Origin: a virus
Reading direction: 5' to 3' (one strand)
DNA: 64,000 bases
Virus record (IMG/VR): IMGVR_UViG_3300036820_000006
Location: 1 to 64,000 of that record
Numbering within the stretch: position 1 is the first letter of the stretch; every line of letters starts with the position of its first letter. Of the stretch, positions 3,977 to 52,693 are shown in pieces. Made by a program: the position numbers and the translations under genes. The notes under the pieces were generated by a model. It was not told the DNA's origin. It saw only the letters and a program-made list of their open reading frames with translations, and did not search any database.

Positions 3977-4555
3977 ATGTACACACCTTATGTTCGCATC
4001 TCTACCGGCAACCCCTACACCGTTCTCGACACGGTAGCGCGCAACCCCGTGGGCAGCATCTATTCGCCTCCGGTGAATGAGAGCTTGCCTCTTAGCACGA
4101 AGGGTCTGGGAGCGCAGCCGGTTTACAAGTACGTCTACTACAACTCGACGGCGAATCCTGCGCCTGTGGCCGCGCCTGCTCCGGTTTACTGGACGGATGA
4201 AACATTCACTACAGTTTCTGGAGTGGCGACCGAAGCTTTGTCAGTCACACTAGGCGTGTGCATTGCTGGTTACCTTCTGCCCAATAGCACAGCTATCTCT
4301 GGTCTCACTGCCGCTGAGCTGAATCAGAGCTACTGCTTTATCCAGATCGGTGGTTTGCTTGTTGGAGCGTACGCAGGCGGCTCCGCAGGCGCAGTTGGAG
4401 ATGTCATCTCTGGCGCAGCCACAGGCAACTGGTCTTATACTGCAGCCACTACTGTAGCTGCTACCAACAAAATCCTTGGTATTCAGTTGACTGCACAAGC
4501 AAGTTCTACCTTTGACGTGTTGGTTGGCGGTTACCAGACCTTCTGGGGGAGCTAA
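3977..4555 (+). CDS. putative head accessory/decoration protein
   Basis: A 192-residue protein right after the capsid gene, with a good CGGAGGT site. It has few charged residues and is rich in Ala, Gly, Thr and Val, with regular beta-like stretches (GVATEALSVTLGVCIAGYLL, TNKILGIQLTAQASS). This suits a capsid-surface protein. Its stop overlaps the next start by one base (TAATG). No family is recognised. Confidence 0.55.
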   Translation: MYTPYVRISTGNPYTVLDTVARNPVGSIYSPPVNESLPLSTKGLGAQPVYKYVYYNSTANPAPVAAPAPVYWTDETFTTVSGVATEALSVTLGVCIAGYLLPNSTAISGLTAAELNQSYCFIQIGGLLVGAYAGGSAGAVGDVISGAATGNWSYTAATTVAATNKILGIQLTAQASSTFDVLVGGYQTFWGS

Positions 4556-7093: not shown

Positions 7094-7657
7094 CTAAGGC
7101 GTAGGCGTCGAAAATTGAACTGCGATGCTTTGCGTCAACTGCTGCGGAGGCACTACACCGTTCACCAGCACGGTGAACTGCTGGTTCCACGTACTGACCG
7201 CGCCATCGCTATCTGTGACAGTGCAGCTCGCCGTGCCGACTACTGCACCGTTGGTGCTTGCAGCCACCGCAGTACACGTTGCGGTCACGCCATCCGAGTT
7301 CAACGTGACTGTAGCGCTGGGATCATTAAAACTGAAGCTGGCATTGCTGACCGTGCCGCCTGACGGCGTTACGCCATCCGCAGCCAGCGGTTGAATGGTG
7401 GCGGTTGAGGTTTGTCCTACATTAAACACGAGTGCGTTGTCGGCCATGATAGAGTCTCCTGTGGAATTGCTGAATTGAATTGCGATTTCGTGGGTGATCG
7501 TGCGGGGTTTGACGTAGCTGAGAATCTCTCGCAAGGTCCAGAGAATCTCTCTGAGTAGCCATACCTCTGATTCGAGCTGAGCAGGAGATGGCAGTGGCTG
7601 TGGTTGTGGCGGTGAATGGTGATGATGGTGTTCATGGCGACCGAACCAATCCAGCAT
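7094..7657 (-). CDS. lone leftward protein with Ig-like domain
   Basis: A 187-residue protein, the only leftward gene in the structural block. A strong AAAGGGAGG site precedes its ATG. The N-terminus has a His run (residues 8-14) and a Pro/Gln stretch, then a helix (LLREILWTLREILSYVK). Residues 70-170 form a bacterial-Ig-like repeat (GQTSTATIQPLAADGVTPSG, SATVTLNSDGVTATCTAV). Such domains on phage particles usually bind carbohydrate. Its orientation suggests an independently acquired cargo gene. Confidence 0.65.
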   Translation of the reverse strand: MLDWFGRHEHHHHHSPPQPQPLPSPAQLESEVWLLREILWTLREILSYVKPRTITHEIAIQFSNSTGDSIMADNALVFNVGQTSTATIQPLAADGVTPSGGTVSNASFSFNDPSATVTLNSDGVTATCTAVAASTNGAVVGTASCTVTDSDGAVSTWNQQFTVLVNGVVPPQQLTQSIAVQFSTPTP

Positions 7658-14102: not shown

Positions 14103-17100
14103 ATGCCGCAGGATTCCGCTTACCGCTCTATTAGTTACATTTACAAGAGTCGCGGACTAATCGCGCGATATACGATTGACCAAACTCCTGAATTCTATTA
14201 CCTCGATCTGCTCAACTTCTTCGAGATTGCCGAAAACGCTATCGCGCCGCGCTACGGTACCCAGATCATCAATCGCGATCCTGATGGCACTGAATCGGGT
14301 AGCAATTACCTGTTTGACTTTCCAGTCACTACACTAGCCAAATTAACCTACCTCGCACAGCCTTACCGTTATGCCATTACCTCAGATGGCCAAGTGTGGG
14401 TGCGGGCCTCGAATTTGCAAGGCGCGTACACTTCGATCCACACTGGGCTATCCGGCCAGCCTGCGCAATATGTCATTACTAACTGTTTCCAAACGTCGCA
14501 GCCTTACATATTCTTCTACGATCAGGCCGCGTCGATCAAAACGTCAGGCTCGGGCACGCCCTCGCTCACTGGCTTAGACCCCTCAGGCACTACCGCGACG
14601 GCGCTGCCATTCTCTCCATTGCTAACGCTGATCGACAACTTTGGTCCATCCAATTTCTACAACTCGTCCGGGTTCTCCGTAGCATGGGCCTCTGAATCGA
14701 TCACCACGCTCACTGCAGGCAGCCTCTATTTCCCCACCGATTTCCCTGAATACATTGGCGTCGCCAACTCCGCTTCCGGCTATACAGGTGGAACTTATCC
14801 GCTCTCCGGGGGCAACCTTGGTATGGACCTTGGCACCTCGGTCACCGGCACCGGCATAAGCACCTATACCACACCGCCTTTTTTAGGATTTCCCTCAATA
14901 ACGCTGCCGCTAACCTCTAACATCACGCTGGCGGTTACTCTTTCAGCTAAGCTGCTGCTTTACTATGCGCTGGACTTTGCCCTCTGCACGGGGGTTGTAA
15001 ATTTTCAATACTCTATTGACGGCGGCACATCATGGGCTACCTTCTATACCTACGCAGCCTCGCGCGCGACGGTTACCTCCCCTACGGGTAATCCAGCGCC
15101 TGTGGGGCCGATTCTAATCTCCACGCCGGTATCTGGGCTCACTAACTTGGCCAATTTGGAAGTGCGTTTCACAATGACCTTGACTGCGCAAAAGTCTGAG
15201 GTTAATCCCAACTCCACGTTAGCAGGAAACATCGCATCTATCAGCGCAACCACCAACAACTCCGCCGCAGCTGATCCGTTTGATGGCGTGGTTGATGGCA
15301 TGTTGGCAGTATTCAATAACACGTCACTACCGTCGCCCGTGCCCATTGTGAATGTGACCTCTGCCGTACTCAACGGCGGCGTCTATAACAGTCTGATCAT
15401 TATGACTGCGCAGCCACATGGCTACAGCACTGGTTACAATGCAGCAATCTATGGTTCCTCATCTTCGCTGGTGGATGGATTCTATTTCGCGATCACAGTA
15501 AATTCTTCCAACCAGTTCACAGTCAATCTTGCCAATATCGATCCTACAGTCTCTTTTCTCTCGGCAACTGGCGGTGTGTGCTATGCAGGTCCCGGCGCTA
15601 ACACGACCAATCCTTCAACTTGTGTTATCGCGAATCACTACTCCACACCTTACCCTAGCCAATTCTCGGCATGGGGGTTCACACGGCCCCTGCGCGGAAT
15701 CGCGCCTGAGACATTCCCAATCTATTGCTGGGTTGGAACCGTAGCCCAGAACACTACTTCCACCTCTCCAGCGTTAGTCGGCAACACTATCGCGCTCGAC
15801 CTCAGCTTTAATAATCAAGTCACGGATGATGATCTAATCGTTATCACATTGCTGGTCGATAATCCCGCAGCTATAGATAATATTCGGTTGCAGTTTGATG
15901 TACGCGGCAGCCAGTACACCTCTAGCTATTACTACAAAGACATCGCGCCTGCTTATTATCAGCAATCCGTGCAGAATCTTGAAGACGCTTATACAGCTAC
16001 CGAGCAGCAAATCCTCGCAGGCACGTTAGGTATAACCACCCCAGCCACTCCCAACTCGACCACAGCGCAGCTACAACCCGGCAACTTTTCCACCGGCTCC
16101 GGCGCATGGGCTACCGTCTATCTGCGTCGGGGTGACTTCGTGCCTGTTGGCACTGCAGGCCAGCCAGGATTGGATTGGTCCGCAATCACGGGCTGGCAGC
16201 TCGTGATAACCACTAATACAGTCGGCGCAGCCACAGTTGCGGTGAACGGACTATATCTGCAATGGGGTTATGGGCCTAGCTCATTCGCAGGCATTGGTTA
16301 TGATTATCGCTACACGCCATACAATATCAACACCGGCACCGAAGGTAATCCATCACCTGAGCAGAAATTTTCCGAACAGTATGGCTGGCTCGCTTCGCTC
16401 ACGGCTCCGATATTTCTGCGCCAAGCGGTACAGATCACCGGCACATTCTTCGCTGATCCCCAAGTCACACACATTCGTATCTATCGGCGTGGTGGTATCG
16501 TCGCAGCCAATTGGTTCCAAATTGACCAAATCCCGAATATCCCCGGTGGCGGTGTGGACGGTTCCGGCCAGTTCATCTACAAAGATGTCATTTCAGATGA
16601 CGCATTGCTGCAAGGCTATCCTTTAGTGCTTGATAATGATCCGCCGGTCACCTCGTCATTATCGAATCCGCTGCTCACCACACTGGCCACTGCGCCTAGC
16701 TCGCCGGGCCAGTCTATCTATAGCATATTCACGCCGCAGCTTATCAAAGTACAAGCTAGCTCATTTGAGTTCGTGCCGACTCAAGTTATCACCATCGGCA
16801 CCGCGAATAACCTTGAAGTAGTGAATGTGATCTCAGGCGGCACTGGCCAGTTCACAGCGATTCTGCGTTTGCAGCATAATATTGGCGAAAATCTTTACTG
16901 TTATTCGCTGCCTCGCGTTTCATGTAATCTCTGTGCGCTGGCTTATGGCCAAGTTTGGCTGACGGGCGACAAGAATAATCCTCATTATCTTTATTTCAGC
17001 AAGGCATCACTGCCTGAGAATTTCGGCCCGCAAAACTATATGCCGGTGGGTTCACCCAATTACCCGATCACTATCGTGGTGAACTGGCGTGGTACTTTGT

Positions 17101-26316: not shown

Positions 26317-26519
26317 AGCTCGCACAGATTACCGATGATTTGGCGATTCAACCGCACAAAGTCACTGCAGTGAAACGTATTAGTGCACGCAAGACCGCGA
26401 TTTTCTGCTCCGGCCAATCTGCGCAGGATGGTAATTTTCTTGTGTTCAAACCTTATGGTGAGGTAATGGATATATTGCAGGAAGCGTTAGTAGATGAGGA
26501 GGCTCGATATGTCCGCTGA
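26313..26519 (+). CDS. hypothetical 68-residue protein
   Basis: A 68-residue protein coupled to the ejection gene by an ATGA overlap. The mixed alpha/beta pattern (KVTAVKRISARKTAIFCSGQ, DGNFLVFKPYGEVMDILQEA) is compact and domain-like. No family is recognised. Confidence 0.5.
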   Translation: MKLAQITDDLAIQPHKVTAVKRISARKTAIFCSGQSAQDGNFLVFKPYGEVMDILQEALVDEEARYVR

Positions 26520-26718
26520 CAAATCTGATGCACACTGGATGGAAAAAGCATTCGCCAACGCTCACCACCAGCTCAGACGAAAAACTCATACAAAGCCTGG
26601 GCAAAATATCTCCGCCCGCGCGCTCAAGCGGGAATCTGGGGCGAAATCGCTGAAAACGCGCCGCCAAGCGAACTTGGCGATGACGGCGCGGAAGATGAAC
26701 GCTCGACGAGGCAAGTAG
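26509..26718 (+). CDS. small basic phage protein
   Basis: A 69-residue basic protein; the ATG at 26509 has a strong GAGGAGG site 6 bases upstream. Sequence such as MEKAFANAHHQLRRKTHTK and ALKRESGAKSLKTRRQANLA resembles the small basic proteins common at the ends of phage structural operons. Its 3' end overlaps the convergent regulator gene by 95 bases. Confidence 0.55.
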   Translation: MSADKSDAHWMEKAFANAHHQLRRKTHTKPGQNISARALKRESGAKSLKTRRQANLAMTARKMNARRGK

Positions 26719-27091
26719 CAACTGCGCTAGCCTCGCGCATCTGTCGCCACAGCGCTTCACCTCTAATAGTGCGCGCAGGCTCAGGCAACTGCGCCACTCG
26801 CTCCAGCTCTTGCTCCCACGCCTCAGCAAACGTAGGAGGCTCACCTGCGCCGTTCATCAATCGCCATAGAATAGCTTGCCGGTCAAATCTGACCTGTTCA
26901 CATTTGCCGGTCTTCAATCCTATTATTAGCTGCCGCACGGCCCACGCGCTGAATTGAGGGCCTGCTGCAGCGTCATCCTTAGCAACCGGTACGCCTAGCC
27001 TGCGCGCCAGTCGCGCTACATCACCTCGCTTCACACCCAGCAGCTCGCTAACATCTTGCACCGTGAATAGAGGTTTATCTTCCGCGCGCAT
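26624..27091 (-). CDS. helix-turn-helix regulator (excisionase/MerR-like)
   Basis: A 155-residue protein whose N-terminus (PLFTVQDVSELLGVKRGDVA, then RLARRLGVPVAKDD) is a winged helix-turn-helix of the excisionase/MerR type. It is followed by the characteristic second part (GPQFSAWAVRQLIIGLK). The remainder is helical, with a Ser/Pro-rich end. It faces a KTSC-domain gene across a 28-bp gap with repeats, so it probably represses both. It lies in the middle of rightward late genes, which is unusual. The last 95 bases overlap the convergent small basic gene. Confidence 0.7.
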   Translation of the reverse strand: MRAEDKPLFTVQDVSELLGVKRGDVARLARRLGVPVAKDDAAAGPQFSAWAVRQLIIGLKTGKCEQVRFDRQAILWRLMNGAGEPPTFAEAWEQELERVAQLPEPARTIRGEALWRQMREASAVATCLVERSSSAPSSPSSLGGAFSAISPQIPA

Positions 27092-27119
27092 AGCGTTACT
27101 ATAGCGTTACTATAACGCC
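27092..27119. promoter_or_regulatory. 28-bp divergent operator with two direct repeats
   Basis: The whole gap between two divergent starts contains TAGCGTTACTA twice in tandem (the first copy begins in the regulator's start codon at 27091), then TAACGC. GCGTTA and TAACGC also form an inverted pair. It is too short for two ordinary leaders, so transcripts must be leaderless or start inside the opposite gene. TATAAC lies 3 bases before the rightward ATG. Confidence 0.6.
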
Positions 27120-27380
27120 ATGGCACAACGCCAGATTCCGATTCCCGAATCTTCGAACCTGCAGTCGGTCGTCTACGATGACGAGGCGATGGAGCTTATT
27201 GTGGTCTTTCATGGGGTCAGTGGTGGGAAAGCTAAATCGCCTAAATATGCAAACGCCACCTACCTTTTCAAATCTGTCCCTTCTAACGTGGTCGATGGCC
27301 TCGCGACCTCTGGCCTGCGTGCCACGGACTACTTCCGCAGCAACATCTATCGACAGTACATACATGAGCGGATTAGCTGA
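27120..27380 (+). CDS. KTSC-domain protein
   Basis: An 86-residue protein that matches the KTSC domain: SSNLQSVVYDDEAMELIVVF at the start, then YLFKSVPSNVVDGLATSG and DYFRSNIYRQY at the end. KTSC domains occur alone or fused to lysyl-tRNA synthetase-like and nuclease proteins, and are frequent in phages. They are thought to bind nucleic acid. No Shine-Dalgarno precedes the ATG. Its expression is likely governed by the adjacent operator. Confidence 0.75.
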   Translation: MAQRQIPIPESSNLQSVVYDDEAMELIVVFHGVSGGKAKSPKYANATYLFKSVPSNVVDGLATSGLRATDYFRSNIYRQYIHERIS

Positions 27381-27444
27381 TGAATTAGCTGCTCTAGCTC
27401 AGATTTCATAGCCTTACTCTCCGCTCTGGTGCTACGCTCCGCGC

Positions 27445-28338
27445 GTGTCCACCTTAGCGCAGGCAGTATCTAACTCGGCACCTTCTCTGTTAGCCGCTCA
27501 AGTGGCTGAACAGGCGCGCATCCAGGCTCCGCTTCATTCTGCAACTGCGCTTGCTAATGCGCTTGCTGAAATTTCTTCTGAGCCTGAAGGCGAAATCATA
27601 GCGCCTGCCTCTGCCGCCGCTACCGCTGCCCTGCGCGCACTCGCCGACCGCTTCTCCCGCGCTGTCGATCACATGCGGGTCGCCGCTTGTGAGCTGGCCT
27701 ACTGTGGCTACCGGCTGCAACAAGCTGCTGACTGGACTTCGTTAGGCTATCGCGATGAGATGGATTTTGCTTCCGCGCATGGCCTCAGCGATTCCACATG
27801 GCGCACCTACACCAAGCTTGGCGGCAGGCTCCAACACCTTGATCTCGCAGAGATGCAGGGCCTTACGCTAGCTGCCGCCAACCAAATCGTTCGCGTGAAC
27901 TGCGCGATCTGGGATGAATATCCATGGGTCGAGGAAGCCAAGCTGCTCAACGCGCGTGAATTCGCGATGCTGGTCGCCGACCGCAATCAGAAAGCGGCTG
28001 CGCTGCCCGCCGCGCTTGCCGCACCTCAACGCGCTGAACCGCGCATCCCGCTGGACGTGAATATCCCAGCGTCGCAGCAGCGCGTTATCAAGCAACAACT
28101 GGAAACAATTCGCAAACGTGAACACTTACCCACTGCTGCTGATGCGCTTACTAGCGCGCTATCCGCTGCTGAGCAATTCGCTGAACTCTCCGTAGTCGCG
28201 ACCGAACTCACCGCGTTGCCAGCTAGCTCGCCCCACGCGCGGACGCTGCTCGGTCAAATCCTCAGCACCCTTGGAGGGATGCCTGATGCCGCATTACAAG
28301 AAAAGGTTCCGTCTGCCCACGCCCTCGCCCGCGACTAG
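27445..28338 (+). CDS. hypothetical, possibly DNA-binding protein
   Basis: A 297-residue Ala-rich helical protein beginning with GTG. A central region (SLGYRDEMDFASAHGLSDST, then WRTYTKLGGRLQHLDLAEMQ and LTLAAANQIVRVN) has the look of an HTH-containing DNA-binding domain, as in some plasmid and phage replication or partition accessory proteins. The C-terminus is helical (QRVIKQQLETIRKREHLPTA). No ribosome site is seen. Overlaps the next gene by 53 bases. Confidence 0.55.
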   Translation: MSTLAQAVSNSAPSLLAAQVAEQARIQAPLHSATALANALAEISSEPEGEIIAPASAAATAALRALADRFSRAVDHMRVAACELAYCGYRLQQAADWTSLGYRDEMDFASAHGLSDSTWRTYTKLGGRLQHLDLAEMQGLTLAAANQIVRVNCAIWDEYPWVEEAKLLNAREFAMLVADRNQKAAALPAALAAPQRAEPRIPLDVNIPASQQRVIKQQLETIRKREHLPTAADALTSALSAAEQFAELSVVATELTALPASSPHARTLLGQILSTLGGMPDAALQEKVPSAHALARD

Positions 28339-42119: not shown

Positions 42120-42704
42120 ATGAAACAACTCACGCTCACGCTCAAGCCTAAGTCCAAGCTCGACCGCAGGTGCTTCCTCAAACTCACAGGCACGGCTGCG
42201 GCAATCACTGTGATACCTAGCTCGCTGCTGCTCTCTGGCTGCAATTCCGAATCCATCGTGCAGGGCCTCAACATCGTGCTTCAGTCGGCCGAAGGCATTC
42301 TCAACGTGCTTGCGCCCGGTGATCCATGGGCTGCGGATTTCCAGCAAGCGGTAGCCGCGCTGCAGCAGGCCGAGGCGGCATGGCAAGGCGGCGGCGCGAT
42401 CAACATTATCGTGTCGGCGCTGAACACGCTGGAAGCGGTCACTGCTGTGGTTCCGTTCACCGCGCCTTATTCTGCATTGATCGACATTCTCGTGGCTGGA
42501 ATTGAATCAGTGCTGCTGCTGATTCAGAACCAGAATCCATCAGTGTCGGTCGCAGCGGCCGCGACTGCGCACCCGAATCCGCACGAGGGCAAATATCATC
42601 TGGGCAGGCCACATGCATTTCAGACCCCGGTGGGCGTTTACCGCAAGGCATGGAATGATGCCGTGAAAGCGAACCCCGTGCTGGCGGCGGCTAAGCTGCA
42701 GTAG
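42120..42704 (+). CDS. Tat-type lipoprotein
   Basis: A 194-residue protein with AAGGGAGAAGG before the ATG. The N-terminus reads KLDRRCFLKLTGTAAAITVI, a twin-arginine (Tat) motif (Arg16-Arg17, Phe/Leu/Lys). It is followed by a lipobox LLLSGC (Cys41). It would be folded, exported by Tat and lipid-anchored. The mature part has helical segments (GLNIVLQSAEGILNVLA; AGIESVLLLIQNQNPSVSV). Lipoproteins of phages often act in superinfection exclusion or as outer spanins, but a Tat signal is very rare there. Confidence 0.8.
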   Translation: MKQLTLTLKPKSKLDRRCFLKLTGTAAAITVIPSSLLLSGCNSESIVQGLNIVLQSAEGILNVLAPGDPWAADFQQAVAALQQAEAAWQGGGAINIIVSALNTLEAVTAVVPFTAPYSALIDILVAGIESVLLLIQNQNPSVSVAAAATAHPNPHEGKYHLGRPHAFQTPVGVYRKAWNDAVKANPVLAAAKLQ

Positions 42705-42766
42705 GAGCTAGGAGCTGGGAGCTAGGAGCTGGGAGCTGGGAGCTGGGAGCTAGGAGCTGGGAGCTG
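42704..42766 (+). repeat. 9 x 7-bp tandem repeat GGAGCTR in a leader
   Basis: Nine head-to-tail copies of GGAGCTA/GGAGCTG start at the last base of the lipoprotein stop and reach 42766. The ATG of the protease follows at 42770. Every unit contains a GGAG Shine-Dalgarno core, so slippage would change the number and spacing of ribosome sites without altering the coding frame. Confidence 0.85.
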
Positions 42767-42769
42767 GCT

Positions 42770-43579
42770 ATGGCATTGAAGCGACTTTACACTGCTCTAC
42801 GCGATTCACTTGATCCGCGTGATAGAGTGCTGCCTCAACCCGCATCTCTTATGTCACCTTTGCCTACTGTGCCTAATGTGAGCTTAGCGCAATGGCTGGG
42901 GACTGTGAAGGACCAAGGAGCTACCGGGAGCTGCACGGCGCAAGCAGGCACGGGCATTTTAGAATGGCATTACAACCGCTTTAAATCTCAATCTCTGGCA
43001 TTCTCACCACAATTCCTGTATCGTGCCGAGCGGATTGTTGAGGGCGATGTCACGATGGATGGCGGCGCACAGTCTCGCACTATGATGAAAGTGCTGTGCC
43101 AGTATGGGACCTGTTTAGAAAGTAGCGATCCTTACAATGGGAATACCGGTTGGCAGCAGCCTACTACTCTAGCGCAACTAGCAGAAGCGCGTGGCTATCG
43201 CATGGGCGCTTATCATCGCGTCAGTGATCTTGAAACATTGAAAGGCGTGCTCAGGTCCGGTTATGTGTCCTCACTCGCTATTGAGGTTTACGAAAGCTTT
43301 GAGACGCAGCTGGTAGCGGAAACCGGTACTGTGCCAGTACCCGCTAAAAGTGAGCAGTTCCTTGGCGGCCATGAGGTTTATTGCTATGGCTATGACGATG
43401 TGCGCAGCGTGCTGCTATGCCGAAATTCGTGGGGACTGGACTGGGGCGCGGCTGGAGACTTCACTCTTCCGTATGGCTATTGGTCAGCGGGCTATGTGAT
43501 GGATTCGTGGTGCTGTCATTTTGGGTCTCCTTGGAAGCTAGCGCCGTCGCTAGCGAACCTACCCAACCAGCACCCATAG
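42770..43579 (+). CDS. papain-family (C1A) cysteine protease
   Basis: A 269-residue protein with all key papain-family residues. Gln49 and the nucleophile Cys55 lie in TVKDQGATGSCTAQAG. His201 is in LGGHEVYCYGYDD, and Asn219 is in RNSWGLDWG, followed by a glycine-rich end (AAGDFTLPYGYWSAGYVMDS). There is no signal peptide and no long inhibitory propeptide (about 45 residues precede the active-site block). Its leader consists of the 7-bp repeats. Phage C1A proteases are known but uncommon; targets could be phage, host or self-defence proteins. Confidence 0.85.
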   Translation: MALKRLYTALRDSLDPRDRVLPQPASLMSPLPTVPNVSLAQWLGTVKDQGATGSCTAQAGTGILEWHYNRFKSQSLAFSPQFLYRAERIVEGDVTMDGGAQSRTMMKVLCQYGTCLESSDPYNGNTGWQQPTTLAQLAEARGYRMGAYHRVSDLETLKGVLRSGYVSSLAIEVYESFETQLVAETGTVPVPAKSEQFLGGHEVYCYGYDDVRSVLLCRNSWGLDWGAAGDFTLPYGYWSAGYVMDSWCCHFGSPWKLAPSLANLPNQHP

Positions 43580-48991: not shown

Positions 48992-51900
48992 CTAAAATTT
49001 GACCTCCTGCAGCTCCGCCATGTTCGGCCCGCAGGCACATTCAATGCCCACTACCAGACCCTCTGGAGCGAGCTGTGGATGCACCAGCACATTACTCGGC
49101 CTACCGAACACGTCGCTGATATCATGCAACATCTGCGCACGCAAGCCTACTGGATAACAGAGCAGAATGCTGTCGTGAATCGTGTTGCACAGGCCGTAGC
49201 GCTCAGCCAACCCTTCACGATCTAGCGCTTTCAACCGCTCACGCAGGTCGCCGTGCGCCTCGCTCTGCACTCTGAATGCCATGGCGGCGTTGAACTGCTC
49301 GCCAGGTTTCCAGCTGCCTTTACCATCGGGCACGTAGACCTCGTAAAACCATCGCAACATTCCGTAGCGGTTCTTTAGCATGCCCTGCCGGTGCGCCTCT
49401 TCGCACACGTTGCGCTGCCATACGAACACCTTTGGGAACAGACGCTCAATAACAGTGCGGAACTCTCTAGCCTGCTTCAATGAGGCGAAATGTTCACGGT
49501 TCATTTCGTAAAGATGTGGCGGCATCAACCCCAACGCAATGCCAAGAATACTCGGCTTGGCCTGCCGGTCACGCACGGCTTTATAACGCTCATTGGACCT
49601 GAACCAGCGAAAGCGATCCATCAGCTCGTCGTCAGGTAGCGCGAACAGCTTATCCGCATCCGGCAGGCGCAGAAAGTTCCACGCCACAAAGCTGTGCATG
49701 TCCAGCCGTGCCATACGGCAGTTATGTGACAAGAATCCCTCCGCGATAAATGTTTTAGTACTCGTACCTAGTGCCACGACAGGATGATTTCCTATAGACT
49801 CAATTTTCAAAATCTTGGCGTCATGCGCAAGTTTTCCAAACACGTTCATGCCTTCTAGCCTAGACAAGCACTTAGGTAATAATCGCTTTGGTCTAAATTG
49901 CCCCAGCGCACGTATACCCGCGAATGGCTGCCCCACAAACCTAAATGTACGGCAATCTCGTTGGGGATTGTTAGCACTGTCCCCAAGGCTATAACCATAT
50001 TTAGCTAACATACTTGCTACCGAGTCCGCGATAATCCCAGGTCTCTGTGCGAAACTTAGCTGGCACCCATTACTAAGGGACCCCTCCCCATCCAAAATTC
50101 CGGCAATATATCCTTGATCCCATAGATCAGCACTCTTCCATGGCGGGGTAAACGTGCTCAAGTACATACCCGTAGCTAATTCATCAGCCCTGCGCCAGCT
50201 TACTCGTTGCTTAGTATCAAACTTAGCTAGCCATGTGTGTTCTATGCTGCATGTAACAACGCCTTGGTCAGTGGTAATGCGCACACACGGACGTTCAATA
50301 TAATCCACGGACTCAATTACGGATTTACGTAGCTTGCGTTTGCCCTCTATCGGAAACTCATCGAATCCCCAAAGTACCTCTCCCTCTCGCAGGTCTATGG
50401 CACGTCTCCATTGCAGGTCGGCCGTCAGAATACGAGTATCTGGGGCCACACAATAAGACTCATCTTCAGCTAAGAACCCTGTAATAAGGACATGATAACT
50501 TTTCAAATCCCAGTTCGCCAGCTCATACCCCGCTGGCGCTTCGATCATACTTTTTATAGCCTTACCCAACTTACCGTGGGCAGGGTAAGTTTGCGTAGAT
50601 GGATTGCGCGCACTTAGCTGTCCAGTCGCGGGCGCGAAGGTAAAAGTGGTGTGTACTCGGCCGTCGGCGTGCGGTTTGAACCCGTCAACATAAGTGCTCG
50701 ACATCTTTCCCATCTCACGGCATTCAATCACCTTCGTATAAAAGTCATCCTTGTGCCTAACTGCGAGACGTTCTAGCTCTTTTTTGTTGGTGGTGTCACT
50801 GCCTTTCTTGCGATCTTTGGGAATCTTATGCCCACGCACCCGCATATAATTCATCAGTTGCGGCGATGAGTTTGGTGAGAATTCATACACACGGCACCAG
50901 CGTGCAACCCCGGCAGTCTGTGTGCCAAGCTGCTCATCAAATACCTGCTGGCCAAACTGGCGCACATCAAAATAGAAGCGCTCACCCGGTTCCTCGACGC
51001 CATCTTCATCCGTGGTCGGCGGGTCCTCGAACATGCGCGCGCGGATCACCGCTATCTCGTCGGCAGTTACATTGCTATAACGATTAAGGTAAGCATTCTT
51101 GGCGGACTCGGTTAGCGCTTTCTTTGTCTGCTTGCCTTCCACCACCGGAATCCGAGTCGGCGTGATCTCTTCTAGCAGCTCTTTGACGCGAGGGGGCACT
51201 CCGGCATAACCATCCTTCGGCGTGATCTTTCTGGCGTCGGCGGGGAACCTGGCATCCAGCTCTAGCAGCAGCTCCGCACGCGTAGCATCAAACTGCGCGC
51301 CTAGCGCCAGCCTACGCTCATTATTAATCGGCAGGCCCCGCTGCTCCATTTTGGCTAGAATTGGCCGCACTGCTTCGACTTGGTTCTCATAGCCGACAGC
51401 GGCGCGCGCAGGCTGCGGGTCATACCATATCCCGCGATCTACCATAGTGCGGTACGAGACTGAATGAATACGCTGTGTCGCGTCCACGTCTACGCAGCCG
51501 TAGAACTCCAGATTGGTGCCGTTCAAATGCTTCCAGGGGAACGGGAACTGCGCATAGCTAGCAGCGAACTGCAGATGCGCGGGCAAATCCGGCTGCATAA
51601 AGTGGAACTGTTGTAAGGTATCGTGTACCGGCCCGGCAAGTTCGAGATAGGTGGCATTGCCGAAATCGCGCTGGCCGACCGCGCGCAGAACTTTCAAATC
51701 GAATAAATTGTAATTATGCCCCAGCTTCGGCAGCGGCAGTTTCAGCAGCCATCTTGTCGCTTGAATAAAAGGCTGCTTCCACGGCATCGCAATAGCTTGG
51801 CCTGGCGCGACGCTGAACTGACTTAGCCTAATCTGCGTATCGGTGAATCCATCCGTTGCGTCTTCATCTAGCGATGCCGATTCAAAAGTTTCGATATCGT

Positions 51901-52693
51901 GTGCCAGCGCGGTTAGTACGTGCTCAGCGGTACCGGGAATGCTGGCCAGCCACGCATCTGAACGCGCTTTTACATCGCGGCAGAAATCGTCCAACTGAAT
52001 AAGTGTTGGATGCAAGGTGTAATTTAGGTGGTTCTGTTGCAGCCACGCTGCTACTGCTTCAGCATCGTTATCCTGCAGCATGTCCAGAATAAAACTTTTA
52101 TCTTTACCGTAACGCACGTTGACCGCGCGTTGAATATCTCGCGCCAGCACGCCGGTGAGATGAATCGCGCCTCGGCGCAGGAAACTAGGATGATATGTAG
52201 GCACCACCAGAAGTTCGCAGCCTGCTGCTTCGCAGAACTCTGGCAGCGCGCGAAACACATAACCGCGCATATGGCTAATAGTGCGCTTTTCGCCCGAGAT
52301 GCCCGTCAAAGTGCGGAACGGAATGCCGCCAAGCGCCACTACAGTGCGCGGCTTGAACTTGCGAAAGAATTCCAATAGATTAGGCTGGCACTGATTGATG
52401 ACGGAGAACTCATAGTTAGTTCCAGCTAGCGCGTTCCCAAATGGTCTGCAGCGCAACGTATTCGAGATTGCGAACTGGTCGCGGGAGAATCCCAGCCGAC
52501 GCAGCGTGCGCTCTAAGACAGCTCCAGCTGGTGCGTATTTGACAAAAGGAGTTAGTTCACGCGCCTCGTTTTCTCCGCTGGCCTCGCCAATGAGAGCAAC
52601 GCCTAAGCTGCAGCTTCCTTCTGGCTGGGAGAAGTCAGTGCCAGCATTGTATAGATAGCAATTTCTACAGCTATCTGGCTTACTCCTGACCAC
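48992..52693 (-). CDS. uracil-DNA glycosylase-like/DNA polymerase A fusion with intein
   Basis: A 1233-residue precursor starting at GTG. Residues 1-195 are a family-4-like uracil-DNA glycosylase: Cys9/Cys12 (CRNC), Cys82 (LRCRP) and Cys102 (NQCQP) for an Fe-S cluster, GEASGENEARELTPF, and TYHPSFLRRG. Residues 260-420 are a DnaQ-like 3'-5' exonuclease (AHDIETF, GHNYNLFDLKVL, DVDATQRI). The polymerase follows: motif A NWDLKSYHVL, motif B ERYKAVRDRQAKPSILGI, motif C IHDSILL. Residues 748-991 are an intein; removal gives a 989-residue enzyme. It is the replicative polymerase of this phage. SPO1-type phages have a similar fused domain. Confidence 0.9.
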   Translation of the reverse strand: MVRSKPDSCRNCYLYNAGTDFSQPEGSCSLGVALIGEASGENEARELTPFVKYAPAGAVLERTLRRLGFSRDQFAISNTLRCRPFGNALAGTNYEFSVINQCQPNLLEFFRKFKPRTVVALGGIPFRTLTGISGEKRTISHMRGYVFRALPEFCEAAGCELLVVPTYHPSFLRRGAIHLTGVLARDIQRAVNVRYGKDKSFILDMLQDNDAEAVAAWLQQNHLNYTLHPTLIQLDDFCRDVKARSDAWLASIPGTAEHVLTALAHDIETFESASLDEDATDGFTDTQIRLSQFSVAPGQAIAMPWKQPFIQATRWLLKLPLPKLGHNYNLFDLKVLRAVGQRDFGNATYLELAGPVHDTLQQFHFMQPDLPAHLQFAASYAQFPFPWKHLNGTNLEFYGCVDVDATQRIHSVSYRTMVDRGIWYDPQPARAAVGYENQVEAVRPILAKMEQRGLPINNERRLALGAQFDATRAELLLELDARFPADARKITPKDGYAGVPPRVKELLEEITPTRIPVVEGKQTKKALTESAKNAYLNRYSNVTADEIAVIRARMFEDPPTTDEDGVEEPGERFYFDVRQFGQQVFDEQLGTQTAGVARWCRVYEFSPNSSPQLMNYMRVRGHKIPKDRKKGSDTTNKKELERLAVRHKDDFYTKVIECREMGKMSSTYVDGFKPHADGRVHTTFTFAPATGQLSARNPSTQTYPAHGKLGKAIKSMIEAPAGYELANWDLKSYHVLITGFLAEDESYCVAPDTRILTADLQWRRAIDLREGEVLWGFDEFPIEGKRKLRKSVIESVDYIERPCVRITTDQGVVTCSIEHTWLAKFDTKQRVSWRRADELATGMYLSTFTPPWKSADLWDQGYIAGILDGEGSLSNGCQLSFAQRPGIIADSVASMLAKYGYSLGDSANNPQRDCRTFRFVGQPFAGIRALGQFRPKRLLPKCLSRLEGMNVFGKLAHDAKILKIESIGNHPVVALGTSTKTFIAEGFLSHNCRMARLDMHSFVAWNFLRLPDADKLFALPDDELMDRFRWFRSNERYKAVRDRQAKPSILGIALGLMPPHLYEMNREHFASLKQAREFRTVIERLFPKVFVWQRNVCEEAHRQGMLKNRYGMLRWFYEVYVPDGKGSWKPGEQFNAAMAFRVQSEAHGDLRERLKALDREGLAERYGLCNTIHDSILLCYPVGLRAQMLHDISDVFGRPSNVLVHPQLAPEGLVVGIECACGPNMAELQEVKF
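49721..50452 (-). other. intein (244 residues) in the DNA polymerase
   Basis: Encodes residues 748-991 in frame. It starts with Cys (CVAPDTRILTADLQW, block A) and has CSIEHTWLAKF (block B). A single LAGLIDADG-type block follows (GYIAGILDGEGSL). It ends GTSTKTFIAEGFLSHN, with Cys as the first C-extein residue (CRMARLD). The DNA is visibly more A+T-rich than the flanking polymerase sequence, which suggests recent entry. It sits between motif A and the DMHSF helix, a highly conserved spot. Confidence 0.92.

Follow-up and report, generated by a model that had tools for sequence, protein, structure and literature searches.

How little DNA can hold the starts, promoters and control site of two divergent genes is the question raised by a locus in the 64,000-nucleotide stretch of viral DNA analyzed here (the window), in which a gene for a helix-turn-helix (HTH) protein and a gene for a KTSC protein point away from each other. 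The initial annotation had placed their starts 28 bp apart, noted a tandem repeat between them, and read the whole as an autoregulated switch with leaderless starts set within the late genes. The sequence and the ORF list bear out the distance, with a 28-bp gap between the start codons at 27092-27119, and the repeat proved to be an exact tandem pair of TAGCGTTACTA (Table 1).

Table 1. Features of the divergent HTH/KTSC locus, in window coordinates
Feature	Position	Strand	Remarks
Small basic late gene	26509-26718	+	Shine-Dalgarno (SD) sequence present
HTH gene, 155 aa	26624-27091	-	Single winged-helix (MerR-superfamily-like) DNA-binding protein
Period-11 tandem run ATAGCGTTACTATAGCGTTACTATA	27090-27114		TAGCGTTACTA twice plus part; candidate direct-repeat operator
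TAGCGTTACTA, exact tandem pair	27091-27101 and 27102-27112		
Candidate -10 of HTH gene, TATAGT	27098-27103	-	6 nt from ATG; -12 to -7 if leaderless
Palindrome GCGTTA-CTA-TAACGC	27104-27118		Candidate dyad operator
Candidate -10 of KTSC gene, TACTAT	27108-27113	+	6 nt from ATG
KTSC gene, 86 aa	27120-27380	+	Pfam PF13619, E 1.8e-7
Weak candidate -35 of HTH promoter, GTGCCA	27121-27126	-	17-nt spacer; inside KTSC gene
Next gene, 297 aa, no assigned function	27445-28338	+	GTG start; no core SD; TACGCT 6 nt before GTG

Both genes are judged real from sequence comparison, being divergent in relatives and under purifying selection. The KTSC domain passes the Pfam gathering threshold (31.2 against 25 bits for PF13619), and between two relatives, G002 and G003, its gene differs by 17 synonymous and 0 non-synonymous codon changes. 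The HTH gene of the same pair shows 34 synonymous and 7 non-synonymous changes outside its antisense overlap; without selection, non-synonymous changes would be expected to make up about 0.7 of the total. Inside the overlap the HTH frame has 2 synonymous and 10 non-synonymous changes, so the last residues of the protein appear unconstrained in this pair. In the window the 3' ends of the HTH gene and of the small late gene are antisense to each other over 95 bp. The KTSC gene was judged by hand, since greedy gene sets substituted an overlapping minus-strand ORF that we regard as spurious. In the parts of the papers available, KTSC is described as an RNA-binding domain in jumbo phages (PMC7824862) and as a DNA-binding domain (PMC9503650), and a reference title names a euryarchaeal KTSC single-stranded DNA-binding protein. 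PDB sequence searches with the KTSC and HTH proteins returned nothing useful. Two other minus-strand genes of the window were recorded along the way: a 187-aa ORF within the plus-strand late block (7094-7657), Ig-like by eye and with no Pfam match, and a 1233-aa DNA polymerase A (48992-52693) that carries a uracil-DNA-glycosylase domain at its N-terminus (Pfam) and in which inspection by eye suggests an intein-like insertion ahead of the polymerase part at the C-terminus.

Related loci were gathered via the head protein, 66 in all, and 50 of these records were searched, the 16 omitted being mostly short contigs. An HTH protein 35-38% identical to that of the window occurs in 3 of the 50, a homologue of the gene at 27445 also in 3, and a KTSC domain in 22. 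Direct searches of viral contigs with the HTH, KTSC and 27445 proteins gave no matches, the HTH and major head proteins had no match in INPHARED phages, genome contigs yielded relatives of neither the HTH nor the head protein, and profile A1 returned the same three HTH records and nothing further. In each of these three (G001, G002 and G003) the HTH and KTSC genes are divergent. The surroundings of KTSC were inspected in 6 of its 22 records, namely these three and G007, G009 and G011. In the latter, where no HTH gene was detected, KTSC lies downstream of co-directional late genes, an arrangement that supports the proposed placement of the locus among late genes. KTSC has an SD-like sequence in G007 and G011; in G009 it has none, but its ATG overlaps the stop codon of the gene upstream, and a homologue of the small late gene stands immediately before KTSC. 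Since three relatives without the regulator have KTSC in a co-directional late operon, the regulator probably came to the locus later than KTSC. In the simplest history, antisense insertion of the regulator would have cut KTSC from its operon, giving KTSC a promoter of its own.

No Shine-Dalgarno sequence precedes the HTH or the KTSC start, and each gene carries a TAnnnT at about -12, the hallmark that the available part of PMC3160421 gives for leaderless genes (a TANNNT some 12 bp upstream of the start codon). When the A of each start codon is taken as +1, canonical T-12, A-11, T-7 and T-18 are found on both strands, and positions -6 to -2 read AACGC before both starts. This gap is the only one of the window's 901 CAT...ATG pairs (8-70 bp) with TAnnnT exactly 6 nt away on both sides, and across the related loci, 66 in number and 1.1 Mb in length, a single pair among 13,715 has that arrangement. 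The signature was also counted before the first ATG of genes without SD, in 14 close loci (window excluded) and 52 distant ones. At 6-7 nt it precedes 13 of 93 first ATGs against 12 of 861 internal ATGs in the close loci (Fisher p 6e-8), and 25 of 301 against 36 of 2283 in the distant loci (p 3e-9). Read from these sequences, the leaderless signature is characteristic of the phage group, and the predicted leaderless divergent starts of HTH and KTSC, which the initial annotation had proposed, are therefore well supported. A hand-picked set of 25 other window genes has SD-like sequences in 22 and TAnnnT at 5-8 nt in none. The TATAAC to which the initial annotation had pointed (27111-27116) does lie 3 bases from the rightward ATG, but it was rejected as the -10 element in favor of TACTAT, whose distance of 6 nt fits the group-wide spacing.

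The start signals of the relatives vary. KTSC of G001 has TATACT 6 nt before its ATG and no SD; in G002 and G003 an SD is present, a TATTGT lies 23 nt upstream, and the start is not of the leaderless type. The HTH gene of G001 has TAGGAT, overlapped by AGGA, 7 nt from an internal ATG, and those of G002 and G003 have TAAACT at 13 nt. Homologues of the gene at 27445 have TAnnnT at 7 nt (G002, G003) or 9 nt (G001) and no GGAG-type motifs. Further arrangements were seen in other loci of the group. L005 has two minus-strand leaderless-type starts with the -10 inside a perfect palindrome, one at 1138 (TTACACGG-AA-CCGTGTAA) and one at 4458 (TTACAT-n6-ATGTAA, with TTGACA upstream), and these palindromes are candidates for further operator-promoters in the phage group. 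In L003, divergent ORFs at 14390 (minus strand) and 14472 (plus strand) lie 81 bp apart, each preceded by a TAnnnT 6 nt from its start and one of them starting with GTG, and in L008 an inverted repeat with 13-bp arms overlaps the plus-strand start codon at 14877, with TAnnnT 7 nt upstream.

The two predicted promoters interlock, in that -11 of one is -18 of the other. They share -7T, -11A and -18T on both strands with bacterial bidirectional promoters, and their predicted starts lie 29 bp apart, outside the 7-25 bp (commonly 18) of that class. For KTSC no -35 is recognizable, the corresponding position reading CGCGCA with 2 of 6 matches. The period-11 repeats overlie both candidate -10 hexamers, the right copy of TAGCGTTACTA is part of the palindrome, and the two start regions are mirror images, with arms at 27089-27098 and 27113-27122 that are 90% complementary. 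The repeat is beyond what a first-order Markov model yields: neither 30 simulated copies of the 64-kb window nor 20,000 random 31-mers contained a period-5-30 run of at least 14, whereas 632 of 20,000 random 31-mers held a palindrome with an arm of at least 6. The real window contains 8 short tandem arrays, so tandem duplication is not rare in it and the repeat alone is weak evidence of function. A GGAGCTG-type array at 42704-42767, which stops just short of a papain-like protease gene (42770-43579), resembles a multiplied Shine-Dalgarno sequence.

Those 8 arrays also mean that slippage could have created the repeat. The promoters might then be leaderless and divergent with no local operator, the repeat being a slippage copy of a bidirectional -10 and the protein acting elsewhere, an explanation that we consider unlikely, though by no means negligible. 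A one-unit ancestor would have had 18 bp between its starts, which is the most frequent spacing of such promoters in bacteria in the part of PMC10268837 available, and an 11-bp duplication would bring them to 29. Every repeat unit holds a -10 for each direction, and the relatives do not have the repeats. The duplication nevertheless measures about one helical turn and leaves both hexamers at -12 to -7, which fits a binding site, and it adjoins a mirror-oriented half-site, as a binding site might.

The distribution of the motif gives the operator reading no help from other sites. Scans of the three regulator-bearing relatives (palindrome arm of at least 5, direct repeat of at least 7) found neither the repeats nor the palindrome; in G001 they returned one palindrome with an 11-nt spacer and an 8-nt direct repeat at distance 37, both within the KTSC gene and unlike the window element. 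That 0 of 3 such relatives have the repeats counts against a switch, as do the KTSC starts of G002 and G003. Beyond its two exact copies here, the TAGCGTTACTA motif does not occur in the 99-kb record (99,275 bp), so the idea of a regulon was dropped and none backs an operator. A possible third copy, a 12-mer with one mismatch at 27407-27418, was likewise set aside, matches with at most 2 mismatches numbering 6 in the window against 3.8 expected.

The HTH protein was compared with its relatives by alignment and by structure prediction, the models having modest confidence (mean pLDDT 66.8 and 59.1; four sequences). The relatives' proteins are two-domain proteins of 268-303 aa. The alignment of the window protein to them begins at a KPLF motif and covers only their second half, so the window protein corresponds to one winged helix, the second, plus the helical tail. 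Its model has helices at 11-18 and 22-32, strands at 37-39 and 44-47 and a helix at 49-63, which is the HTH, two-strand wing and helix of the MerR-superfamily winged helix, at moderate confidence. The G002 regulator is modeled as two successive winged-helix-type units, the second of which matches MerR-type domains in its fold list; the window may have lost a domain or the relatives may have gained one. Pfam HTH_17 scores 17.9 bits against a cut-off of 27, and the protein is therefore regarded as related by fold and not classed as HTH_17. The NCBIfam model 'excise' (E 0.053, under its cut-off) and PADLOC mad1 (E 0.0017) match the winged helix only. The VIA-align matches, whose coverage is mainly the winged helix, are led by pSK1 Par (Z 8.5, rmsd 1.4 A, 53 residues) and include RacA (Z 8.5, 2.5 A, 59 residues), Xis (Z 6.0, 2.7 A, 53 residues), BldC (Z 5.9, 3.0 A, 55 residues) and MerR-type regulators.

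The same comparisons can be read as pointing to a structural DNA binder of the partition or packaging type, with the repeats as its loading site and no switch at all. The pSK1 Par domain is bound to centromere DNA in the top match, the Foldseek rows include 7lwr, a viral packaging protein, and the gene is located in the late block. The unit is present in just two copies, however, the relatives are without it, and fold similarity does not demonstrate function; we regard this explanation as very improbable.

In the parts of the sources available (PMC5859096, PMC11963761), BldC binds direct repeats head to tail and RdfS negatively autoregulates. Because the repeats lie over both hexamers and the fold class contains direct-repeat binders and autorepressors, autorepression is our leading guess, and the autoregulated switch of the initial annotation is plausible. 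Under the reading that we favor, to which we give a little less than an even chance, the 28-bp gap is a compact bidirectional leaderless promoter, and the winged-helix protein binds the GCGTTA elements and represses both genes. We infer transcript starts, binding, direction of control and timing in the gap as follows. Each RNA would have the A of its start codon as its first base. The leftward TATAGT and the rightward TACTAT would be offset by one 11-bp repeat, which sets the starts 29 bp apart and pairs each promoter's -11A with its counterpart's -18T; two polymerases would be unable to load together. The winged-helix protein would be produced from the better promoter, GTGCCA-17-TATAGT, and would sit on the direct repeats or the dyad, over both hexamers. 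Once bound, it would limit its own synthesis and keep KTSC off until its level falls. A more specific proposal, that the promoters are interlocked and mutually exclusive and that the 11-bp units are half-sites for a one-domain repressor which replaced a fused two-domain ancestor, is decidedly unlikely.

Control of the SoxR kind, in which the protein would repress its own promoter and activate KTSC, is improbable in our judgment. In its favor are the poor match at the -35 position of the KTSC promoter, the MerR-superfamily fold of the regulator, and the example of SoxR, which activates soxS and directly represses the divergent soxR (PMC12825309, in the part available). Against it stand the lack of a visible -35 at a 19-bp spacing for KTSC and a candidate dyad that overlaps the rightward -10 instead of lying between -35 and -10.

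If repression of both genes from the gap is correct, the locus illustrates how compact a regulated divergent switch may become: with no leader required by either message, start codons, promoters and operator would fit in 28 bp. It would provide a simple test of polymerase competition and of a repressor at starts one extra helical turn apart. An uncultured phage group would also use leaderless starts widely, which is relevant to predicting genes in phages of this kind.

Phage regulator pairs with leaderless messages are already known, and bidirectional promoters are common. The combination of a 29-bp interlocked geometry, two leaderless messages and a 28-bp gap beside a late gene had no match in the literature examined. 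In PY54, both cI and cro mRNAs are leaderless by RACE, with a palindromic operator near the starts (PMC4488713). The window locus resembles it as a phage regulator gene pair with a shared region, leaderless mRNAs (predicted here) and a palindrome near the starts. In PY54 both partners are repressors, belonging to a temperate immunity region, whereas here the KTSC late gene is one of the partners, a gap of 28 bp separates the two and the regulator has a winged-helix fold. With the bacterial bidirectional promoters (PMC10268837, PMC12825309) it shares a near-symmetric -10 region with -18T, -11A and -7T on both strands; unlike them, it has two separate hexamers, starts predicted beyond the 7-25 bp of PMC10268837, and two messages that are both predicted to be leaderless.

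Among regulators, SoxR at PsoxS-soxR (PMC12825309) is similar in that a MerR-superfamily protein is encoded divergently to its neighbor across a bidirectional promoter, but the window protein has no detected sensor domain and the neighbor's promoter has no 19-bp spacer. The oligomeric winged helices of the BldC, RdfS and Xis type appear similar in predicted fold by Foldseek and VIA-align; the window protein differs in a largely helical or disordered C-terminal extension of about 90 residues, the relatives' regulators are two fused winged helices, and the repeat here, a candidate site, is 11 bp. As in the bacterial TANNNT leaderless genes (PMC3160421), about 12 bp separate the first T from the start codon, here in uncultured phages and on both strands of one 28-bp gap.
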